DNA of 64,000 bases, taken from NCBI RefSeq assembly GCF_020037125.1, contig NZ_JAIQDG010000014.1:124001-188000 (forward strand), written 5' to 3'. The DNA is from Myxococcus sp. RHSTA-1-4. GTDB taxonomy: Bacteria > Myxococcota > Myxococcia > Myxococcales > Myxococcaceae. The translations under genes and the position numbers were made by a program. Position 1 is the stretch's first letter, and each line of letters opens with the position of its first letter. The notes under the pieces are model-generated. The model made no database searches. It was not told where the DNA came from and saw nothing but the letters and a program-made list of their open reading frames with translations. Of the stretch, positions 1-9,243 are shown one piece after another.

Positions 1-1
1 A

Positions 2-37
2 GCTGCTCTTCAAGCGCAGGGAGTCTACTTCCCATGA
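2..37 (+). CDS. 3' end of an upstream gene (partial)
   Basis: An open frame enters from the left edge and stops at TGA 35-37. That stop overlaps the ATG at 34 of the next gene in the ATGA arrangement typical of translationally coupled genes. Only eleven residues are visible, ending in VYFP, so no family can be assigned. The overlap suggests the nuclease that follows belongs to an operon beginning outside the window, possibly with further parts of the same DNA-modification island. The call rests only on the overlap. Confidence 0.35.
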   Translation, partial: AALQAQGVYFP

Positions 38-1011
38 GCCTCAAGTCCTTGTTGCCGGGCTGGACCGTTCCGCTGGTGAAGAACGAGGTGCGCATCCGGA
101 GCTACTCGACGACGGCGGACGTGCTGGCCTTCCGCCGGTGCCGGCGTCAGTACGGGTACTTCGGGGTCCGTGGCTTCAGCAGCGCCACCTCAACGCAGCT
201 CTACTTCGGCACCCTGGTGCATGACGTGCTGGACCGCATCACCCGAGACCGCCGAGCGGCACCGACGCGGGCGCTTCCCTCGGAGGAGGAGATCCAGCAG
301 CTCGTTCAGGAGGCGCATGACCGGCTTATCCGCTCAGGCGTGCGGACCTTCAACGCGCCCCTGATGCGGGAGAAGGCGGCACGGCTCATCCACCGATTCG
401 TCCACCTGGTGGGCGAGGCGTTCTTCCCCCACATCCGTCAGACCGAGTACCGCCTGGAGCGAGCTCTGAAGACCCCGCAGGGGCGCGACTACATCCTGCA
501 GGGAGTGGTGGATATCCTCGCCGGGGCGGTGTCGCATGCCTTGGGGCTCAACTTCCCAACGTCGGAGGTGGATGAGGAAATCTGGGACTACAAGTCGGGG
601 CGCATGCCAGCCAAGGGCGCCTCCGAGTTGGTGGACTACGAGTACCAGATGCAGGTGTACGCCGAGCTCTACCGGCAGCAGACGGGCCACTTTCCGGCGC
701 GCGCGGTACTCATCTTCCTGGGCGAACTCGACGATGACGAACTCTGGAAGCTGGCGCTGAAGGGAAAAGGCCCTGGGGTCTTTCCGCGTCTCTTCTATCC
801 GCTGCACCCCTCGCCCGTTCGGGTGAAGGCGGCCATGCAGGACTTCCACAATACCGTGGAGTTGATTGAGGAGGAGCGCGCCAAGCCCTACGAGAAGCAA
901 TGGGCCGCACCCAGCCACTCCGTGGAGGAGCAGACCTGCGAGGCCTGCGACATCCGCTTCCGGTGCTCCAGCTTCCCCCAGGCGAGCAAGCAGCGTCGCG
1001 ACGCGCTCTGA
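34..1011 (+). CDS. RecB/Cas4-like PD-(D/E)XK nuclease with Fe-S cluster
   Basis: A 325-residue protein of the PDDEXK_1 (RecB/AddB/Cas4-like) nuclease group. The core motifs occur in order: the histidine motif GTLVHDVLDR (H63), GVVDIL with D150, WDYKSGR with D185 and K187, and the YQMQVYAEL helix (Q205/Q207). Four cysteines frame the domain: C36, then C302, C305 and C311 in CEACDIRFRC. This is the spacing that holds a 4Fe-4S cluster in AddB and Cas4. Proteins of this type degrade or trim DNA ends. There is no helicase domain in this polypeptide, so it probably works with a partner, perhaps the upstream gene that overlaps its start. Its position just before a 7-deazaguanine DNA-modification operon suggests the nuclease arm of a restriction-like system, but a 540-base gap separates them. 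The fold is clear; the role is inferred. Confidence 0.85.
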   Translation: MSLKSLLPGWTVPLVKNEVRIRSYSTTADVLAFRRCRRQYGYFGVRGFSSATSTQLYFGTLVHDVLDRITRDRRAAPTRALPSEEEIQQLVQEAHDRLIRSGVRTFNAPLMREKAARLIHRFVHLVGEAFFPHIRQTEYRLERALKTPQGRDYILQGVVDILAGAVSHALGLNFPTSEVDEEIWDYKSGRMPAKGASELVDYEYQMQVYAELYRQQTGHFPARAVLIFLGELDDDELWKLALKGKGPGVFPRLFYPLHPSPVRVKAAMQDFHNTVELIEEERAKPYEKQWAAPSHSVEEQTCEACDIRFRCSSFPQASKQRRDAL

Positions 1012-1549: not shown

Positions 1550-2200
1550 GTGAGCTACGCCGTCAAGGAGCTCTTTTACACGCTGCAGGGAGAGGGCGCG
1601 CAAGCTGGGCGCGCGGCGGTGTTCCTCCGCTTTTCTGGCTGCAACCTCTGGAGCGGTCTTGAGCGAGACCGGGAGAGAGGGCCAGGCGGCTGCTCTCGCT
1701 GGTGCGACACCGACTTTGTCGGGCTTGATGGCTCTGGAGGCGGGAGGTTCACATCCGCCGATGCATTGGCGGATGCCGTGGCTGCGGAATGGCCCCAGAC
1801 GCATGCAGAGGAGCAGGCACCCATGGTGGTGTGCACTGGTGGGGAGCCGCTGCTCCAACTGGACGTCCCGCTGCTCGATGCGCTTCATGCGCGTGGGTTC
1901 TTCGTCGCCGTCGAGACCAACGGAACGAAGCCTGTCCCCGAGGAAGTGGACTGGGTCTGTGTGAGCCCCAAGGCTGGAAGTGAGCTGCTGCAGCGGACGG
2001 GCAACGAGCTCAAGCTCGTGTTCCCGCAGCCTGGCTTCGAGCCAGGCCAGTTCGTGGACTTGGGATTCACGCACTTCATCCTCCAACCCATGGATGGCCC
2101 GAACAGGACTCACAACACGGAACTGGCGCTCCGCTACTGCCTGGAGCATCCGAAGTGGAAGCTCGGGCTTCAGATGCACAAGATGGTGGGAATCCGCTGA
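1550..2200 (+). CDS. queE: 7-carboxy-7-deazaguanine synthase QueE-like radical SAM enzyme
   Basis: A 216-residue radical SAM protein that should convert 6-carboxytetrahydropterin to 7-carboxy-7-deazaguanine, the committed step towards preQ0. The start is GTG at 1550 behind GGGAGGG. QueE hallmarks are the N-terminal FYTLQGEG, FSGCNLW, WCDTDFVG, the SAM-binding VVCTGGEPLLQ, and VETNGT. The cluster cysteines are spaced C-X16-C-X3-C, unlike the C-X3-C-X2-C and C-X14-C-X2-C patterns known for QueE, so the first loop is longer. The gene leads an operon whose later genes insert a preQ0-derived base into DNA, so this copy probably supplies substrate for DNA rather than only for tRNA queuosine. FolE, QueD and QueC are not visible and must lie elsewhere. 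The family call is strong. Confidence 0.9.
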   Translation: MSYAVKELFYTLQGEGAQAGRAAVFLRFSGCNLWSGLERDRERGPGGCSRWCDTDFVGLDGSGGGRFTSADALADAVAAEWPQTHAEEQAPMVVCTGGEPLLQLDVPLLDALHARGFFVAVETNGTKPVPEEVDWVCVSPKAGSELLQRTGNELKLVFPQPGFEPGQFVDLGFTHFILQPMDGPNRTHNTELALRYCLEHPKWKLGLQMHKMVGIR

Positions 2201-2213
2201 GACGGACAGTTCG

Positions 2214-3170
2214 ATGACCGCGACCCTGCACATCATCGCGAGCTGCACTGACCGGAAGCGCCAGCCCGTGCCCGAGCCACTCCGTCTTCGCGCTGTGAAG
2301 GTGGACGGTATCGAGGCCCGTGCGCGGGCGTGGTGCGAACGCCTCAGTGACGACCGCTATGACGCGTTCGAGGCGGGGGCGCTCTACGCTGGCGCGCACT
2401 GGAGCGTTGTCCTGGGGCTGCCCGAGGTCGCCCGTGCACGTGGATTCAAGCCGCAACTCTGGGTCGCCTCAGCAGGGTATGGGCTGATTCCAGCGCATGC
2501 GGTCATCCGCCCCTACTCCGCGACATTTGCCCGGGGGCACGACGACTCCGTGGTGAAGAACGCCGCCAGTCGCGACTCAGCGGACCAGTTGCGGATGTGG
2601 TGGAAGGTCCTCTCGCGGCACGAGGGCCCGTCGGCTCGGCATGCCCGCAGCATCAATGAACTCGCCGCGGAGGGGCCGCGGGCCAGCATCCTGGTGGTGG
2701 CCTCTCCGTTGTATGTGACGGCCCTCGCTGAAGACCTGGCCCGGGCGGTACAGCAACTTGTCGTGCCGGAGCGCCTGCTCATCGTGTCCACGCCGTCCCC
2801 CCTGGCGAAGGGGCCGCTGGCTCCTCACTGGATTCCATCGAGCGCGCACCACCAGAAGCGACTGGGGGGCTCGAAGCTGTCCCTCCACGCGCGCGTCGCG
2901 CGCGAAATCATCGAGCAAACGCCGAGCGAGCGCTTCGATGCTCATTCCGTTCGGCGAAAGTATCAGCGCCTGATTGCGCGCAGTGCGCCCCCCCTCGTCC
3001 ATCAGCGGACGCCGATGTCGGATGCGGAGGTGCACTCGTTCATCAGGGATGCGTTGAGAGCAGGAGAGAAGTCCTGGAGTGCATCCCTCCGCCGCCTTCG
3101 CGCGGGGGGGCAGGCATGTGAGCAGAGTCGTTTCAAGCGTCTCTTCCTCGAAGTCCGGGAGGGCCCATGA
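2214..3170 (+). CDS. dpdC: DpdC candidate (dPreQ0 to amido-deazaguanine step in DNA)
   Basis: A 318-residue protein starting at ATG 2214, 13 bases after queE, and overlapping the next gene by ATGA at 3167-3170. Near the N-terminus are IIASCTDRKR and, about 70-90 residues on, a WVASAGYGLIP stretch. This resembles the small nucleotide-related DUF6884/YaaA-like group with an SAxYGL motif. In Salmonella Montevideo dpdC is needed, beyond dpdA and dpdB, to convert preQ0 in DNA to 7-amido-7-deazaguanine. The size and position beside dpdB and dpdA make this the best DpdC candidate. The identification rests mainly on gene order and a remembered motif, not on a computed alignment. An alternative is another Dpd accessory protein. 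Confidence 0.55.
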   Translation: MTATLHIIASCTDRKRQPVPEPLRLRAVKVDGIEARARAWCERLSDDRYDAFEAGALYAGAHWSVVLGLPEVARARGFKPQLWVASAGYGLIPAHAVIRPYSATFARGHDDSVVKNAASRDSADQLRMWWKVLSRHEGPSARHARSINELAAEGPRASILVVASPLYVTALAEDLARAVQQLVVPERLLIVSTPSPLAKGPLAPHWIPSSAHHQKRLGGSKLSLHARVAREIIEQTPSERFDAHSVRRKYQRLIARSAPPLVHQRTPMSDAEVHSFIRDALRAGEKSWSASLRRLRAGGQACEQSRFKRLFLEVREGP

Positions 3171-4306
3171 AGAGAGCCGAACCTTCTTCCATTCAACGCC
3201 GTGCCATCCGCGTCATTCAGACGTCGAAGAACCCGCTCTTCCTCTTCGCGCTCACCGCCGAGGAGTTGCTTCAGGTGGCGGAGGTCTCACGCGTCTCACG
3301 GGACTCTTCGGGACGGCTGCTCGGGTATCAACGCCCCGAGGTGAAGCGGCATGTCCGCAGCATCACGGAGTACCTGAACGGCGACGAGGTGCTTTTCCCG
3401 AACTCCATCATCCTCGCCCTGTCGTCCTCGGTCATCTTCAAGCAGGTACGAGGCCCCCGCGTGGATGATGGCAGGGCGGAGGCTGGAAGCCTCGTGATTC
3501 CACTGCCGAAACCGGGACAACCGAAGCCCGCGTGGATTGTGGATGGGCAGCAGCGAGCGCTTGCTCTGTCCCAGTGCCGCAAGCAGGATCTCCTCGTCCC
3601 TGTCAACGCCTTCATCGCGGATGAAGTGGACCTGCAACGCGACCAGTTCCTCCGAGTCAACAACACCAAGCCACTGCCCCGCGGGCTCATCACGGAGCTC
3701 CTCCCGGAAGTCTCGACGCTGCTTCCGCCCAATCTGGCCGCGCGCAGGGCGCCCGCCGCATTGTGCGACCTGTTGAGTCGCGACCCGGAGTCCCCTTTCA
3801 GGAACCTGATCCGTCGCTCCTCCATGGAGGCCGCTTCGCGGAAGTCCGCCGTCGTCGCGGACACTGCGGTGGTGAAGATGATTCAGGATAGCCTCTCCGC
3901 ACTCACCGGGTGCTTGTTCCCCTTCCGGAACATCGCCAGCGGCGAAACCGACTTCGATTCGGTCAGGAAGTCGCTGCTTCTGTACTGGACCGCGGTCAAG
4001 GAAACCTTTCCTGACGCATGGGGACTCCCTCCCTCCCGGAGCCGGCTCATGCATGGCGCGGGCATCAGCGCGATGGGGCGACTGATGGACAAAGTGATGA
4101 GCAACATCGATATCCGCGCCGCACGGGCACCCAAGTTGGTTCGTGCCGAGCTTCAACGCGTGCGGCCGGTGTGTCGTTGGACAGAGGGCCAATGGGAGGA
4201 CCTGGGGATTTCATGGAACCAGGTGCAGAACACGCCGCAACACATCCGGCTGCTCTCGAACGTTCTTCTTCGTGCGTACACCAATAACCGTCGGACGGCA
4301 GCGTGA
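3167..4306 (+). CDS. dpdB: DpdB-like DGQQR-domain protein, copy 1
   Basis: A 379-residue member of the DGQHR/DndB-like superfamily. Key motifs are GYQRPEV at 53-59, VDGQQR at 125-130, NNTKPLPRGLITELLP at 165-180 and WGLPPSRSRLMHGAGI at 285-300. DpdB helps DpdA insert preQ0 into DNA in Salmonella; the related DndB and DGQHR proteins have ParB-like folds. The start overlaps the stop of the previous gene and its own stop overlaps the GTG of dpdA (GTGA at 4303-4306), so the three genes are translationally coupled. A second protein with the same motif set lies directly after dpdA, and the two are obvious paralogues. Whether both support modification or one has become a regulator is unknown. Confidence 0.82.
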   Translation: MKRAEPSSIQRRAIRVIQTSKNPLFLFALTAEELLQVAEVSRVSRDSSGRLLGYQRPEVKRHVRSITEYLNGDEVLFPNSIILALSSSVIFKQVRGPRVDDGRAEAGSLVIPLPKPGQPKPAWIVDGQQRALALSQCRKQDLLVPVNAFIADEVDLQRDQFLRVNNTKPLPRGLITELLPEVSTLLPPNLAARRAPAALCDLLSRDPESPFRNLIRRSSMEAASRKSAVVADTAVVKMIQDSLSALTGCLFPFRNIASGETDFDSVRKSLLLYWTAVKETFPDAWGLPPSRSRLMHGAGISAMGRLMDKVMSNIDIRAARAPKLVRAELQRVRPVCRWTEGQWEDLGISWNQVQNTPQHIRLLSNVLLRAYTNNRRTAA

Positions 4307-5568
4307 AGTACTTCTTCCCTGATAGCCAGGATCTGGTTGACCCCAGCTTTGATTTCGAGCGGGAGCGGCGCTCGACTACCCGAAAGCGGCAACGCGACGA
4401 CTTGTACGCGCACGAGGTTTTCTCCTCGACGCCCTTCGATGGGCTCCTAGTTTCCAAGGGAATTGTGGACGGCTATGGAGGACTGGGGAGCCGGTATACG
4501 CTCGCACAACGACACCGGTTGCTGCGCTTGGGCGCTCCAGAGTTCTTCAGAATCGACCAGGCCCCGCGGAAGCTTGCTCTCATGGGGGATTGCGGCGCCT
4601 TCACCTACGTGAAGGAAGAGGAGCCGCCGTACTCGGTCGACGAGTTGCTGGAGTTCTATGGGGGCTGTCGCTTCGATTACGGGCTTTCGCTAGATCACGT
4701 CATTCTGCTGTTCAAGCCGGAGGCAGATGCTTCGCGTGATGCTCTCAAGGCACTTGTTCCCAAGGAGATGCAGGACCGGCGTGAGTTGACGCTGGAGCTT
4801 GCCGAAGCGTTTCTTCGGAAGCACAAAGCCGGGAAGTACACCTTCGAGCCCATCGGTGTTGCTCAAGGGTGGAGCCCTCTGTCGTACGCGGAATCGGTCA
4901 AGGCTCTGCAGAAGATGGGCTACCACTTCATTGCTCTAGGGGGGATGGTCCCCCTCAAGTCTCCGGAGCTCCTTGCGTGTCTGGAGGCTATCGATAAGGT
5001 CAGAAAGCCAGGCATCCAGCTTCATTTGCTCGGAATCACGAGAACTGAGCACCTGAAGGACTTTGACCGGCTCGGCATTACCTCCTTCGACAGTACCTCT
5101 CCGCTGCGCCAAGCCTTCAAGGACGACAAGGACAACTACTATACGCCCGAGCGCAACTACACGGCGATTCGCATTCCCCAGGTAGAGGGGAACCCCGGGC
5201 TCCAGCGCATGATCTCTTCAGGCGAGGTGTCTCAGGATGTTGCTCGGAAGCTGGAGAAGGCCTGCCTTGAAGGGATGCGGCTGTTTGAGGCGGGTAAGCG
5301 GACTGTCGACGAGGTTCTGGCCCTTTTGATGGAGTACGAGCGCTTCTACGACCCGGGTTCGAAGAAGAATCATGCGGAGGCCTACCGACGAACGCTGACG
5401 GATGCTCCCTGGCGGAAGTGCCCTTGCGACGTGTGCCGTGAACTTCGCTATCACGTCGTGCTCTTCCGCGGGGCGGAGCGGAACCGTCGACGCGGCTTCC
5501 ATAACGTCTGGACCTTTTATCAGCAGCTCGAGAAGCAACTCGGGCTTGAGAAGGGGAGCGCGGCCTGA
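4303..5568 (+). CDS. dpdA: DpdA, TGT-like DNA 7-deazaguanine transglycosylase
   Basis: A 421-residue tRNA-guanine transglycosylase homologue of the DpdA type, which swaps guanine in DNA for preQ0. The start is GTG 4303, overlapping the previous stop. Motifs follow the TGT barrel order: LMGDCGAF (D96, candidate catalytic Asp), FDYGLSLDHV (D125, D131), the substrate-side GVAQGW at 185-190, GGMVPLKS at 213-220, and SFDSTSP (D263, candidate nucleophile). A zinc-site signature CPCDVC (C373, C375, C378) with H384 or H400 closes the chain, as in tRNA TGTs. The N-terminus and the EEEPPYSVDEL segment fit DpdA rather than housekeeping TGT. The gene is visibly less G/C-rich than the chromosome after 9.6 kb, consistent with transfer. 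It is the defining gene of the island and the firmest assignment here. Confidence 0.92.
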   Translation: MKYFFPDSQDLVDPSFDFERERRSTTRKRQRDDLYAHEVFSSTPFDGLLVSKGIVDGYGGLGSRYTLAQRHRLLRLGAPEFFRIDQAPRKLALMGDCGAFTYVKEEEPPYSVDELLEFYGGCRFDYGLSLDHVILLFKPEADASRDALKALVPKEMQDRRELTLELAEAFLRKHKAGKYTFEPIGVAQGWSPLSYAESVKALQKMGYHFIALGGMVPLKSPELLACLEAIDKVRKPGIQLHLLGITRTEHLKDFDRLGITSFDSTSPLRQAFKDDKDNYYTPERNYTAIRIPQVEGNPGLQRMISSGEVSQDVARKLEKACLEGMRLFEAGKRTVDEVLALLMEYERFYDPGSKKNHAEAYRRTLTDAPWRKCPCDVCRELRYHVVLFRGAERNRRRGFHNVWTFYQQLEKQLGLEKGSAA

Positions 5569-5594
5569 GGCCGGCGACCTGACACGGTGCACAC

Positions 5595-6764
5595 ATGCCG
5601 AACGAAATGAAGCTTCCCGCGATTGAGGTGAAGCAGTCCCCAGGGCGGACACTGTACGCGTTCGCGGTTGACGGCAAGCTGGTTCCGAAGTTTGCGGCAA
5701 TCTCTCGAGTGCGGCGTAGAGACGATGGTGGGTTGACGGGCTACCAGCGGCCCGAGGTGCTCTCGCACATTGACGAGATCCGGAACTACCTGGAGAGCAA
5801 CTCCCCGATGGTTCCGAATGCGGTGGTTGTTGCGTTTGACTCTCGCGTGAAGTTCAAACCGGATTCCAAAGGCGCTGCTTCTGATTACTCGCGCTCTGGA
5901 GTTCTCTCTATTCCTTTTGAAGAGGAATCCTCCGACGAGAAGAAGCCTGGATTCATCGTTGACGGACAGCAGCGTCTGGCGGCCATTCGCGAGGCACTGA
6001 TCGAGAGCTTCCCCATCTGTGTCACGGCGTTCATTACGGATGACGTGAGCCAGCAGACTGAGCAGTTCATCCTGGTCAATTCGACGAAGCCGTTGCCTAA
6101 AGGGCTCATCTATGAGCTCCTGCCTGGTACGAATGCTCGCCTGCCATCGCTACTCGACCGCCGTCGTCTTCCGGCGTTGCTGCTGGAACGCCTGAATCTG
6201 GATGAGGGGTCCCCGTTGCAGAAAATGATCCAGACGGCGACAAACCCGCACGGAATCATTAAGGATAATTCCATCCTGCGAATGCTGGAGAACAGCCTGA
6301 ACGACGGGGTGCTTTATCGGTTCAATTCGGGCGAAGAAGAAGGCCCAAACGTGGAGAAGATGCTCAATGCGCTCCACGCCTACTGGGCCGCCGTCAAGGA
6401 GGTCTTCAAAGCAGCCTGGGGATTGCCGCCGAAGAAGTCGAGGCTCATGCACGGCGCGGGTATTGTTAGTATGGGGCTCATTATGGATGCGATCAGCGAT
6501 CGCTATCGCGATAAACCCCACCCGAGCGCTGGACAGTTTGCGACAGACCTCATGCCACTGAAGGAGGTTTGTCGATGGACCGCTGGCTTCTGGGACTTCG
6601 GTCCTGGTCACCAGCGCAAGTGGAACGAGATCCAGAATACGTCAAAAGATATTGAGTTGCTCACGAACTACCTCATGGTTCAGTACAAGAGCCGAGTGTG
6701 GTCGGCTCCCGATATCTCTCAAGAAAACACGCCAAAGCGTAGTTCATCGAGACGACGGGGGTAG
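5595..6764 (+). CDS. dpdB: DpdB-like DGQQR-domain protein, copy 2
   Basis: A 389-residue paralogue of the protein at 3167-4306. The same motifs recur: GYQRPEV at 49-55, VDGQQR at 122-127, STKPLPKGLIYELLP, WGLPPKKSRLMHGAGI and VCRWT. It starts 26 bases after dpdA at ATG 5595, with no strong ribosome site. An internal ATG at 5607 is an alternative start. The C-terminus carries a short Ser/Arg-rich basic tail (SSSRRRG) absent from copy 1. Two DpdB-like genes bracketing one dpdA is an unusual layout. Possible explanations are a heteromeric DpdB or different DNA targets for each copy. The gene ends 57 bases from the stop of a convergent HNH gene. Confidence 0.82.
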   Translation: MPNEMKLPAIEVKQSPGRTLYAFAVDGKLVPKFAAISRVRRRDDGGLTGYQRPEVLSHIDEIRNYLESNSPMVPNAVVVAFDSRVKFKPDSKGAASDYSRSGVLSIPFEEESSDEKKPGFIVDGQQRLAAIREALIESFPICVTAFITDDVSQQTEQFILVNSTKPLPKGLIYELLPGTNARLPSLLDRRRLPALLLERLNLDEGSPLQKMIQTATNPHGIIKDNSILRMLENSLNDGVLYRFNSGEEEGPNVEKMLNALHAYWAAVKEVFKAAWGLPPKKSRLMHGAGIVSMGLIMDAISDRYRDKPHPSAGQFATDLMPLKEVCRWTAGFWDFGPGHQRKWNEIQNTSKDIELLTNYLMVQYKSRVWSAPDISQENTPKRSSSRRRG

Positions 6765-6821: not shown

Positions 6822-7685
6822 TCAACGAGCAACGGGTGCTGCGCAGTGGGTGCAAAGTGTCCTACTGTTTTCGAGAGTCCAACCTAGCTCCGGATTCACT
6901 TTGTGCGCGACTAACTCTTGATCGCCACGTAATTCCGTCGGGCGGCGGAGGCAATTTGTGCATCGGCCGTCCCTAGTAAATATCATCCAACGCTGAGTCG
7001 CCGATGTAGATGCTAGATCTGATGGTTTGCTCGGGCCGATAACTGCTGACTTTATAGGCCAAAATAGCGAGGCTCCTTTGCTTGTGTTGCAGGTGAGGCA
7101 GAGGATTTGGCAGTTTGCTATGTCGTGTCCCGCCAGGAATATCGGAACAATGTGGTCGAGTTGTGGCGGTCGTAGGGGGCCTATTTGAGATGCGGCATCT
7201 GGCTCCTCTAAGTACTCCTGAGCCAGCATTTCTGCATCCGAGAACTTGTGGCCGCAGGTGTTGCAGCGTCCGGACTGTGAACGCAGAAGGGCAGAAAATT
7301 CTTCTCTGGAGACCGAGTATGTCGGTCTACCAAAGACTGCATAGCGACGCATGCGTTTTAGGATGGCGTGAATCGCTCGAATGTCTGCTTCGCTGGGCGT
7401 CGCGAGTAGCGCATTCGCCATTATTTTGGCGTAAGGCCTGATATCGACTGCGTTTGGGTTGAGTACTGCTACAGGAACCTGCGTCCAAAAGAGTTTGTGG
7501 ACCGCGAGCAAAGACGAGATTTCGTGCCACGTAAACCCGGATGGAGACGGGTCACGAATCGCGATTGAGGCGTAGTCGGTTTTTAGTGAGGCAACAAAAT
7601 CTGTCGAAGAATCGTTGCCAAATGGCACATTGTTCCTTCTTGCGCCATTGGCGAGCAGGTGAAGTAGGTCGCGAAGCGCCTTCAT
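6822..7685 (-). CDS. Double HNH-type zinc-finger endonuclease
   Basis: A 287-residue protein. The ATG at 7685 was chosen because it follows the upstream gene's TAA by a single base; a GTG at 7718 is possible but would overlap. The first HNH-like unit has CNTCGHKF (C141, C144), LDHIVP (D177, H178), N191 and CLTC (C196, C199). A second unit follows with CTNC (C242, C245), VAHK (H261), N273 and CTHC (C278, C281). The first matches a standard HNH nuclease; the second keeps the metal ligands but has AH in place of DH, so it may only bind DNA or zinc. The N-terminal 120 residues are unassigned. It forms a two-gene operon with a DGQHR protein and is likely its nuclease. Base composition is clearly A/T-richer than the chromosome, suggesting recent transfer. 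Confidence 0.75.
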   Translation of the reverse strand: MKALRDLLHLLANGARRNNVPFGNDSSTDFVASLKTDYASIAIRDPSPSGFTWHEISSLLAVHKLFWTQVPVAVLNPNAVDIRPYAKIMANALLATPSEADIRAIHAILKRMRRYAVFGRPTYSVSREEFSALLRSQSGRCNTCGHKFSDAEMLAQEYLEEPDAASQIGPLRPPQLDHIVPIFLAGHDIANCQILCLTCNTSKGASLFWPIKSAVIGPSKPSDLASTSATQRWMIFTRDGRCTNCLRRPTELRGDQELVAHKVNPELGWTLENSRTLCTHCAAPVAR

Positions 7686-7686
7686 C

Positions 7687-9243
7687 TTACTTCTTCTTGG
7701 CGGCCTTTGTGCTGACACCGGTGAATAGCGGATCGGACTTTTCTAGTGACTTTAGCTTTGCGCCCGATACGCGCATTGCATTCAGTGCATTTCTAAGTAC
7801 CTCTCGTCCATCCTCTGTGAGCAGTTCAGTCCGTTTCCACTTGGTATGGAAGAATCCCGCTGGCACGTTTTTGTAAAAGTCTTCTACATCTTCGCGCAGT
7901 TCTATTGGATTCTTATAGGCAATCCCTGCGAGAGCCTTGGCGGCGAGAAAGTTCTCTTGGAGCACTTCAAGGGTCGCTCGGTACATCAGTTGGGTGCCTG
8001 GTTCCCAGAGTTGTTCTTTGTTGTATAGATTTCTGACGCCGTTCCAGAATGCAAACATGTATGACTTCCATTGTTCATCCCAGGCTTCCGACTTTTCTGA
8101 CTTGGAAGTGCCTGGAAGCCCATCGCGGAAGAGGGTCCTATAAATCGTATCGCGGTCGGTCATTTTTCGCTTCCAGCGAGACGCTAGTGCAATGGCGGCT
8201 TTGAAGGTTATTTTCTTGTTTTCCTCCTCAAGGCCTCGGGAAATAAGACCTTGGAAGGGGCTATCTGGATCGTCGTTAAGGGTCCTCAGTATTTTTGTTT
8301 CGTAAGTGGAGATTCCTGCGGCATCGAGCTTGCCTTCAAGTTCGACGATTTCCGCATTCGTCAAGCTTGAATTGACGATTGATGCGAGTAGTTCGCTAGA
8401 AATCGCTCGTGCTTGCTTGTTGATGACTACGAACTGGAAGACCTGCTCTTGCCAGTCAGCATCAATAAGGGCGCATACTGTGAACGGGACCTCTTGCGTG
8501 CTCTCTGCTGCACCCCAAACGCGATGCTGACCGTCTACGATCATGGCCGGTTTGAGGAGGCTGAGTAGCACATCGGTCAGTCTTTCTCGTGCCTTGGCCT
8601 GTTTGAGTTCATTGGTGTCGGCCGCAGGATCGTCGATTGAGTTTGCGATGTCGTTGATGAACTTGTCGAGGGATTGCTTGTCTTTTAGGCGCTTTGCGAA
8701 GTCCTTGAGGGCGCTCTTGCCGACATCGACTCCCCAGTCCTCGATGGTCGACGTTTCCTCTGGCAACGCCTCCTCTGTATCTAGTTCGCTCGGCGAGGAG
8801 GGTTCTTCTTCCGGTGAAGGTTCTTCTTCAGAGGGAGGGATGTCCTTGGCGATTCGCTCGCTGATAAAGGCGTATGCTCTTTTGGCGAGTGACTCAAGTG
8901 ATTCGTTTTCAGCGGGGTTGCTTATGTCGAGCGTGACGAGGTCAGGACTGTATGACAGGGATGTGGATGTGCTCGACTCTTTTAGGGGGGCTGTGCTCAG
9001 TTTGCACATGCCAGGTCGGAAGGCTACAACGATTGCTGTCGGCGATGCATTGCCCTGTTCGTCAAAGAAGTCGATGATCTTCTTGAAGCGGTCGCTCAGT
9101 GGGCGCTGAAAACCACCAATGAAGTCCGTTGTCTTGTGAGGCACGCCAGCCCATGTGCGTATTTCTTCGGCGGGTGCCACAAAAGTGACAACTGCAGGCG
9201 AGCCAGGGGTCTGATTGAAGCGAAATCCGAGGTAACGGGGCAT
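7687..9243 (-). CDS. Large DGQHR-domain (DndB-like) protein
   Basis: A 518-residue protein with the signature VDGQHR at 236-241 and an upstream GFQRPL at 44-49, the counterpart of GYQRPEV in the two DpdB-like proteins. It differs in length and in an acidic, Glu/Ser/Pro-rich insertion at about 105-165, followed by a helical segment before the signature. DGQHR proteins include DndB, which regulates phosphorothioate DNA modification, and DpdB. The downstream HNH gene begins one base after its stop, so the pair is probably co-translated. The operon converges on dpdB copy 2. It could be a separate defence pair or the restriction half paired with the deazaguanine operon. No Shine-Dalgarno sequence is evident before ATG 9243. 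Codon use is markedly more A/T-rich than in genes after 9.6 kb. Confidence 0.78.
   Translation of the reverse strand: MPRYLGFRFNQTPGSPAVVTFVAPAEEIRTWAGVPHKTTDFIGGFQRPLSDRFKKIIDFFDEQGNASPTAIVVAFRPGMCKLSTAPLKESSTSTSLSYSPDLVTLDISNPAENESLESLAKRAYAFISERIAKDIPPSEEEPSPEEEPSSPSELDTEEALPEETSTIEDWGVDVGKSALKDFAKRLKDKQSLDKFINDIANSIDDPAADTNELKQAKARERLTDVLLSLLKPAMIVDGQHRVWGAAESTQEVPFTVCALIDADWQEQVFQFVVINKQARAISSELLASIVNSSLTNAEIVELEGKLDAAGISTYETKILRTLNDDPDSPFQGLISRGLEEENKKITFKAAIALASRWKRKMTDRDTIYRTLFRDGLPGTSKSEKSEAWDEQWKSYMFAFWNGVRNLYNKEQLWEPGTQLMYRATLEVLQENFLAAKALAGIAYKNPIELREDVEDFYKNVPAGFFHTKWKRTELLTEDGREVLRNALNAMRVSGAKLKSLEKSDPLFTGVSTKAAKKK

Follow-up and report, generated by a model that had tools for sequence, protein, structure and literature searches.

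The locus described here raises the question of how a bacterium that seems equipped to mark its own DNA with a 7-deazaguanine base might cut DNA that lacks the mark. The stretch analysed, referred to below as the window, comprises 64,000 nucleotides of Myxococcus sp. RHSTA-1-4 (contig NZ_JAIQDG010000014.1, positions 124,001 to 188,000; G000:C40:124001-188000 in the coordinates of our survey, in which G, C and L denote genomes, contigs and loci), and the host genome amounts to 11.24 Mb in 134 contigs. Near its start lies an operon for QueE, DpdC, DpdB, DpdA and a second DpdB, which by itself is of a known, ordinary kind. The new element is rather the two nuclease pairs that flank it, namely a UvrD-type helicase with a PD-(D/E)XK nuclease on one side and an HNH endonuclease with a divergent DGQHR protein on the other. 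Judging from sequence comparisons, it is probable that the locus encodes a Dpd restriction-modification system with one or more non-canonical restriction arms, the flanking pairs attacking unmarked DNA. Neither pair was found described as a Dpd arm in the open-access literature, most subscription papers lying outside the scope of that search.

Search for the canonical restriction genes

The restriction operon dpdD-K has been treated as optional, and HNH (PF01844) genes along with hypothetical genes were reported near two islands devoid of it (PMC11888242). The cutting of unmarked DNA by Dpd systems has been called barely explored (PMC12707154). Sixteen dpd regions were searched by tblastn with all eight DpdD-K proteins of an Enterobacter plasmid and with D, I, J and K of an Agrobacterium vitis plasmid as the queries. 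Around the window's dpdA, no dpdD-K gene was detected over 34 kb on the upstream side and 24 kb on the downstream side. The original prediction had noted that these genes were not in view, and this held when the search was extended to 30 kb before the window. Among the other regions, dpdE, F and J adjoin dpdA in G064, G042 and G099, with H of G099 recovered through a later blastp; the same tblastn search also detected a gene resembling dpdJ in G078 and, in G102, a weak match to F. DpdJ was the one member of D-K sought genome-wide, and its best match in the window's genome scored 49.5 bits where the cut-off is 800, a range also seen in 11 of 14 control genomes. Across the 16 whole DpdA genomes searched, DpdJ exceeded the cut-off in G099, G097 and G062.

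A helicase-nuclease pair that accompanies DpdA

The first pair straddles the upstream edge of the window. Its UvrD/Rep-type helicase gene (742 residues, plus strand, G000:C40:121809-124037) has its last bases at window positions 1-37. The open reading frame that was scored (L002:7773-10037, same frame as the gene) gave 170.4 bits with Pfam UvrD-helicase and 54.8 bits with UvrD_C, the helicase motifs GPGTGKT and DEYQDT are intact, and the best matches in the Protein Data Bank (PDB) are UvrD-type helicases. Sharing 4 bases with this gene, the one at 34-1011 (plus strand) codes for a 325-residue PD-(D/E)XK nuclease of the RecB/AddB/Cas4 kind (Pfam PDDEXK_1 63.7 bits, cut-off 22). Residues D160, D185-Y-K187, C36, C302, C305 and C311 are invariant in the six aligned rows that include the window's protein, for which a PDB sequence search returned no match at E 0.1.

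To follow the nuclease beyond the window, a profile (A2, threshold E 1e-6) was applied to 195 genomes of the phylum, 16 of which contain DpdA over its cut-off. The nuclease was detected in nine of these 16 genomes and in one of the 179 others (Fisher p 1.2e-10), the lone exception, G189, being a weak match split into 44.5 and 39.5 bits. Counted by genus, the figures are 6 of 8 with DpdA and 1 of 82 without (p 3e-7). The nuclease gene lies near dpdA in G000, G061 and G046. It lies megabases away on the same sequence in G066, G095 and G097, and on another contig in G063 and G102. Leaving out the three linked genomes still gave 6 of 13 versus 1 of 179 (p 1.8e-7, with G139, the ninth genome with the nuclease, counted). 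Since the unlinked genes still accompany DpdA, in five of the nine genomes, neither hitch-hiking nor chance explains the co-occurrence. A UvrD gene adjoins the nuclease in all five unlinked genomes, the helicase of G095 being in two pieces. Among DpdA genomes of other groups, the nuclease was present in 6 of 50 (50 of the 75 available loci). Three of these six already belong to the A2 profile as rows, and the other three, those of L070, L076 and L135, are new, with no such gene seen in their dpd flanks; the nuclease in the genome of L076 is adjoined by no more of a helicase than a 147-residue piece. The order of M. bohemicum, a set scored for the nuclease alone, contained it in 1 of 397 genomes, that of M. 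bohemicum itself, where it is near dpdA.

The helicase-nuclease pair on plasmids

A tblastn search of 72,556 plasmid records matched 17 with the window's nuclease and 5 with that of L087, giving 19 distinct records. A DpdA-type match is present in 25 of all plasmid records, and these include seven of the 19 (hypergeometric p 1e-20), of which three come from haloarchaea and have distant, TGT-like matches. At 100 bits or above with either query there are eight records, and seven of these belong to the DpdA-type set. The distance between the nuclease and the DpdA-type gene is 3-11 kb in Rhizobium, Bradyrhizobium, Scytonema, Halobaculum and Picosynechococcus, about 29 kb in Natronococcus and about 40 kb in Salinigranum. 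Rhizobium WYJ-E13 carries, all in one direction, helicase, nuclease, DpdC, DpdB, DpdA, DpdB, QueE, QueD and QueC, and on the Halobaculum plasmid NZ_CP119991.1 (L221:6037-16647) helicase and PD-(D/E)XK nuclease adjoin queC, folE, queE, a PTPS gene and a long TGT gene. Both of the window's pairs stand at a dpd operon of a different phylum in Bradyrhizobium pB41S5, where the order is DGQHR protein, HNH, nuclease, helicase, dpdC, dpdB, dpdA, dpdB, queE, queD, queC; its HNH protein scored 21.0 bits, marginally below the cut-off of 21.4, and no dpdD-K gene was seen within the 18 kb viewed. These plasmid results support the helicase-nuclease pair as an arm and link the HNH-DGQHR pair more broadly to modification operons.

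The original prediction had left two alternatives, a reduced system or a different restriction arm, and the evidence favours the latter. A reduced Dpd system would only mark the DNA, either against other nucleases or for regulation, its arm having been lost and the flanking nucleases being independent defence genes gathered in a hotspot. Helicases and HNH proteins are indeed frequent in defence islands, the flanking genes differ among relatives that share the same chromosomal site, and a helicase-nuclease pair of the same family adjoins DISARM genes in Nostoc. Archangium is among the islands with dpdC and without the restriction operon (PMC11888242). Independent genes should nevertheless roam without DpdA, yet the nuclease occurred in one of 179 such genomes, and weakly, while being unlinked to dpdA in five genomes that have both; likewise, seven of the eight best-scoring nuclease plasmids carry DpdA-type genes. 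Because of this co-occurrence and the plasmid results, a reduced operon without an arm is our second choice, and we regard it as unlikely.

The HNH-DGQHR pair

On the other side of the operon, the minus strand carries two overlapping genes. The first (6822-7718) encodes a candidate effector, an HNH endonuclease (Pfam HNH, PF01844, 25.1 bits, cut-off 21.4), and the second (7687-9243) a candidate sensor, a third and divergent DGQHR protein of 518 residues that is DpdB/DndB-like (TIGR03187 59.0 bits, cut-off 58.85). In 13 aligned rows including the window, C152, C155, D188-H189, N202 and C210 of the HNH protein are invariant, as are D237, G238, Q239 and R241 of the DGQHR motif at 237-241 of its partner. 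The latter had no Pfam family at E 0.001, and its alignment no PDB sequence match at E 0.01. Its predicted structure (mean pLDDT, the predicted local distance difference test, 70) gave ParB, Noc, KorB or PadC chains as the first 13 VIA-align rows, at middling Z scores of 5.2-7.6, and Z 2.5 over 114 residues against SspE; Foldseek returned no match at E 0.001. The HNH protein had no PDB sequence match at E 1, and its weak model (mean pLDDT 62) no Foldseek match at E 0.001.

The distribution of this pair was examined in a survey of dpd loci that combined 80 named loci of 432 DpdA relatives, the 16 loci of the phylum and three plasmid regions, 99 in total and 94 after removal of five duplicates. 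DpdB-DpdA-DpdB is the commonest layout, at least one DpdB occurs in 93 of the 94 distinct loci, and two DpdB copies and an operon QueE are present in many dpd loci besides the window's. The divergent third DGQHR protein accounts for 14 entries, or 13 of the 94 distinct loci, and an HNH gene adjoins it in all 13. Ten of the HNH calls come from a Pfam scan in which ten of ten matched (L090 below threshold), and the others are by Pfam for the window, by alignment for G102 and by annotation for A. vitis. The two genes overlap or lie at most 18 bases apart in 12 of the 13 loci, A. vitis having an IS5 gene between them. The one pair read away from dpd genes in the phylum is that of G099, a genome whose DpdA gene lies on a different contig. 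Its site and that of the unlinked helicase-nuclease pair of G102 have two neighbour genes in common, 93% and 87-90% identical, and both modules therefore use one chromosomal site in the two genomes.

Four DGQHR queries against the plasmid set matched 11 distinct records. The divergent class is found in three of them, those of A. vitis and Bradyrhizobium, which also have DpdA, and that of Pseudomonas aeruginosa. Six more matches adjoin dpdA (Sinorhizobium, Skermanella, Rhizobium, Caulobacter, Azospirillum and Shinella), and the last two are in Euzebya, annotated as DpdB, and Leptospira. On the P. aeruginosa plasmid NZ_CP133095.1 (L218:8163-15049) the HNH-DGQHR pair is next to the genes dndBCDE, with no dndFGH within the 19 kb viewed, and is possibly the same two-gene arm used for phosphorothioate marks. 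Because the pair adjoins dnd genes in Pseudomonas, a mark-guided role in restriction is likelier for it than one in 7-deazaguanine chemistry.

One could also envisage that the pair is a type IV enzyme which, like GmrSD or GrwAB, cuts phage DNA bearing other modifications and is blind to the host mark. GmrSD-family proteins join a DGQQR ParB-like domain to an HNH domain (PMC4619093), GrwAB targets phages in which the DNA bases are 7-deazaguanines or carry sugar modifications (PMC12137116), and the Pseudomonas DGQHR protein matched Pfam GmrSD_N at 17.2 bits, below the cut-off of 33.2. Such an enzyme needs no host mark, yet, G099 apart, every neighbourhood of the pair that was read contains a dpd or dnd operon; this is a weak argument, most of the loci having been found through DpdA, and we consider a type IV enzyme quite unlikely. 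The third DGQHR protein might instead act as a regulator or accessory of modification in the manner of DndB, with the HNH protein as a nicking helper. It does share its DGQHR domain family with DpdB, and DndB regulates phosphorothioate modification (PMC4507180). A modification accessory found in 13 of 94 loci compares poorly with DpdB in nearly all of them, and the unfailing nuclease partner points the same way, so that we find this role very improbable.

A count of the HNH-DGQHR pair in 4 of 16 DpdA genomes and 0 of 179 others, and with it the confinement of the pair to DpdA genomes, was withdrawn since the searches miss known members. The third DGQHR proteins of G121 and G102 escaped both the Pfam DndB search and BLAST with the window's protein, the Pfam search also overlooked that of the window itself, and among the 18 DndB matches in non-DpdA genomes three came without a readable locus.

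Relation of the two pairs to dpdD-K

Association tests were limited to loci flanked by at least 8.5 kb on each side, which kept 71 of the 94 and dropped 23, a locus being taken as having dpdD-K genes if it held any of D, E, F, H, J or K. The third DGQHR protein is present in 5 of 51 loci with such genes and 8 of 20 without (p 0.0059), the helicase-nuclease pair in 2 of 51 and 4 of 20 (p 0.049), and either pair in 7 of 51 and 11 of 20 (p 0.0007). The six loci in which a UvrD gene with an A2-type nuclease lies near dpdA are those of G000, G061 and G046 (twice), L084, L087 and L139. More distant genes could escape notice in flanks of about 10 kb, and the loci are related to one another, so these associations are taken as leads only.

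Several observations weigh against a non-canonical arm. The locus-level p-values are too small, the loci being related, and the sequences behind the A2 profile came from dpd loci, with as few as ten candidates scored per genome in the phylum and four in the order of M. bohemicum. The nuclease of G061 and the helicase of G095 each read as two pieces. Eleven further nuclease plasmids, weak matches at 56-79 bits, are without a DpdA match. Exclusivity to DpdA is contradicted by the Nostoc plasmid NZ_CP026684.1 (L222:6531-20001), on which the helicase-nuclease pair adjoins DISARM drmC and drmA and a DUF262 protein and which has no DpdA match. Both genome-wide searches for the HNH-DGQHR pair overlook known members and give no firm count of it outside DpdA genomes. 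Finally, seven of the 51 dpdD-K loci also carry a pair, DpdJ is encoded away from the dpd locus in G097 and G062, and genes resembling J and K stand next to the helicase-nuclease pair of Scytonema, on which grounds the pairs may supplement the canonical arm and not replace it.

Proposed mechanism and comparison with known systems

The order of events that we infer is as follows. QueE would contribute to the supply of preQ0, the DpdA and DpdB proteins would swap guanine in DNA for preQ0, and DpdC would convert the inserted preQ0 to the amide (dADG), leaving the host DNA marked; one or both of the neighbouring nuclease modules would then attack unmarked incoming DNA. The first module, AddAB-like, may unwind and cut by means of its UvrD-type helicase and four-cysteine PD-(D/E)XK nuclease. 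For the second, the DpdB-like DGQHR protein is proposed to sense the mark through a putative ParB-like nucleoside triphosphate-binding domain and to control the separate HNH nuclease, in the way that SspE, a single DUF262-HNH fusion protein, acts on phosphorothioate. What the sequences show is the genes and their conservation, intact signature motifs in all four flanking genes, a strong co-occurrence of the helicase-nuclease pair with DpdA, and the recurrence of both pairs at DNA-modification operons. The biochemistry, the sensing step and the target assigned to each module are predictions. A nuclease attacking unmarked DNA is tenable only in a host that marks its own, a requirement with which the co-occurrence of unlinked nuclease genes and DpdA fits.

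The system resembles the Dpd system (dpdA-K) of Salmonella Montevideo and its relatives in DpdA, DpdB and DpdC, as identified by family models, and in having a preQ0 gene in the operon; it differs in that dpdD-K were not found nearby and that the UvrD helicase, the PD-(D/E)XK nuclease and the HNH-DGQHR pair are present. The SspABCD-SspE system offers a close parallel to the second module, with a DGQxR domain and an HNH nuclease at a DNA-modifying operon. SspE reads phosphorothioate with its DGQQR domain and nicks DNA with its HNH domain (PMC9646914), whereas the window's pair is encoded by two genes, with a TIGR03187 DGQHR domain rather than DUF262, a PF01844 HNH domain rather than DUF1524, and a predicted base mark rather than a backbone mark at its operon. 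The type IV enzymes GmrSD, GrwAB and BrxU also couple a DGQxR domain, ParB-like in their case, with an HNH nuclease; they need no host modification, whereas the pairs examined here mostly adjoin a modification operon. AddAB-type pairs resemble the first module in that a UvrD-type helicase adjoins a RecB-like nuclease with four conserved cysteines. The likeness is one of domains and motifs, and the window's version is a small two-gene pair that co-occurs with DpdA. DndI, a single protein acting in another chemistry as an alternative arm of Dnd phosphorothioate systems, is an earlier case in which the restriction partners of a given modification module can be exchanged, so that one mark serves several arms (PMC11662687).

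Taken more widely, the restriction arms of DNA-mark systems may be exchangeable. Dpd would have at least two beyond dpdD-K, one being the UvrD and PD-(D/E)XK pair, which may lie at a distance in the genome yet is mostly kept with DpdA, and the other an SspE-like pair split over two genes, a DpdB relative having turned into the sensor of the mark and recruited an HNH protein as the nuclease. The latter arm would act on dnd marks too, and the former may act with DISARM. We hold this broader proposal to be evenly balanced between right and wrong. If true, these two-gene arms would be easier to purify and assay than the canonical eight-gene arm, they would account for 'reduced' dpd islands, and the mixing and matching of mark and cutter known for phosphorothioate would extend to 7-deazaguanine.

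The modification operon and preQ0 supply

The five genes lie on the plus strand in the order named in the original prediction, and family models uphold each of the names. They are QueE, a 7-carboxy-7-deazaguanine synthase of the Cx14CxxC family (1550-2200, TIGR04508 325.6 bits, cut-off 240); DpdC, for the step from preQ0 to amido-deazaguanine (2214-3170, with 2214 as the preferred start); the first DpdB (3167-4306, NF041060 426.6 bits, cut-off 300); the DNA-guanine transglycosylase DpdA (4303-5568, NF041059 577.1 bits, cut-off 200); and the second DpdB (5595-6764, NF041060 490.3 bits, cut-off 300), both DpdB copies having a DGQQR motif. The profile searches proposed earlier as a check on DpdA and DpdB thus gave scores that, as for QueE, greatly exceed the curated cut-offs. 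The corresponding search for DpdC gave 262.5 bits with the best of eight PADLOC models, which are without a curated cut-off and on which the DpdC call depends.

Whether DpdA might group with tRNA-modifying TGT enzymes, a check for which a phylogeny had been suggested, was addressed by scores instead of a tree. DpdA matched Pfam TGT at 24.7 bits, under the cut-off of 26.3, and its sole distinct match in a PDB sequence search at E 0.001 or better was 7UI4, the solved DpdA of Salmonella Montevideo (442.8 bits over residues 1-416). C373, C375, C378 and H400 are invariant in an alignment of 10 DpdA proteins, and presumably bind zinc as such residues do in the TGT family. The DpdC/DpdB1 and DpdB1/DpdA junctions are 4-base overlaps and the remaining ones short gaps. 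The identical five-gene order recurs in three close relatives (G078, G136 and G121) at 56-87% protein identity, and the arrangement is therefore not a matter of chance.

As for precursor supply, the prediction of a QueE dedicated to the operon is borne out, for the operon gene is the second QueE of the genome, the other, on C50, reading as the CxxxCxxC type. QueC is represented by one full gene on C43 and a QueC-family piece of 25 bits, also outside the window's contig, and two PTPS/QueD-family genes are on C11 and C41.

The island and its neighbours

Confining the feature to 1550-6764, as had been done, captured the five operon genes but proved too narrow, the low-G+C island being larger on both sides. 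It extends from the helicase start, 2191 bases before the first base of the window, to about 9243, and its G+C content is about 52-66% across most of its length versus about 67-76% in the remainder of the window. Within the genus, DpdA is present in three genomes and had no match in 20 others among the genomes listed, which suggests horizontal gain. Upstream of the helicase (L002:4331-7022) are a gene for a YhgA-like 'Transposase_31' protein and a protein kinase gene.

Other genes were observed at the dpd loci of other genomes. Downstream of dpdB2 in G136 (L040:2287-4966), the place of the HNH-DGQHR pair is taken by genes for a 633-residue DndB-family protein without DGQHR and a 258-residue protein with an E-x-K nuclease-like motif. 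G062 (L041:14365-16688) has, downstream of dpdB2, a 498-residue DndB-family protein with DGQGR adjoining a queC-like gene. Belonging to the Pfam DndB family and lacking DGQHR, these third genes of G136 and G062 were excluded from the pair counts. An AHH-type nuclease and an Imm11 immunity protein, probably a toxin-immunity pair, follow dpdB2 in G066 (L054:2594-4462). The locus of G046 (L059/L060) lacks DpdB; its DpdA is divergent (37% identical) and lies near a HerA/FtsK-type ATPase, QueC, QueE, QueD and two UvrD plus PD-(D/E)XK pairs. This locus may be related to the TGT-HerA 'BRC' systems of PMC12839542.

Long DpdB-like open reading frames of 556-566 residues (424-431 bits with a home-made DpdB profile) were noted at L173, L174 and L176 of genomes G077, G088 and G134, with no DpdA match there, and possibly belong to another DpdB-using system. 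A relative of DpdA, 40.7% identical over 98% of the query, is encoded at MT835580.1:34181-35443, an unannotated phage record from human faeces.

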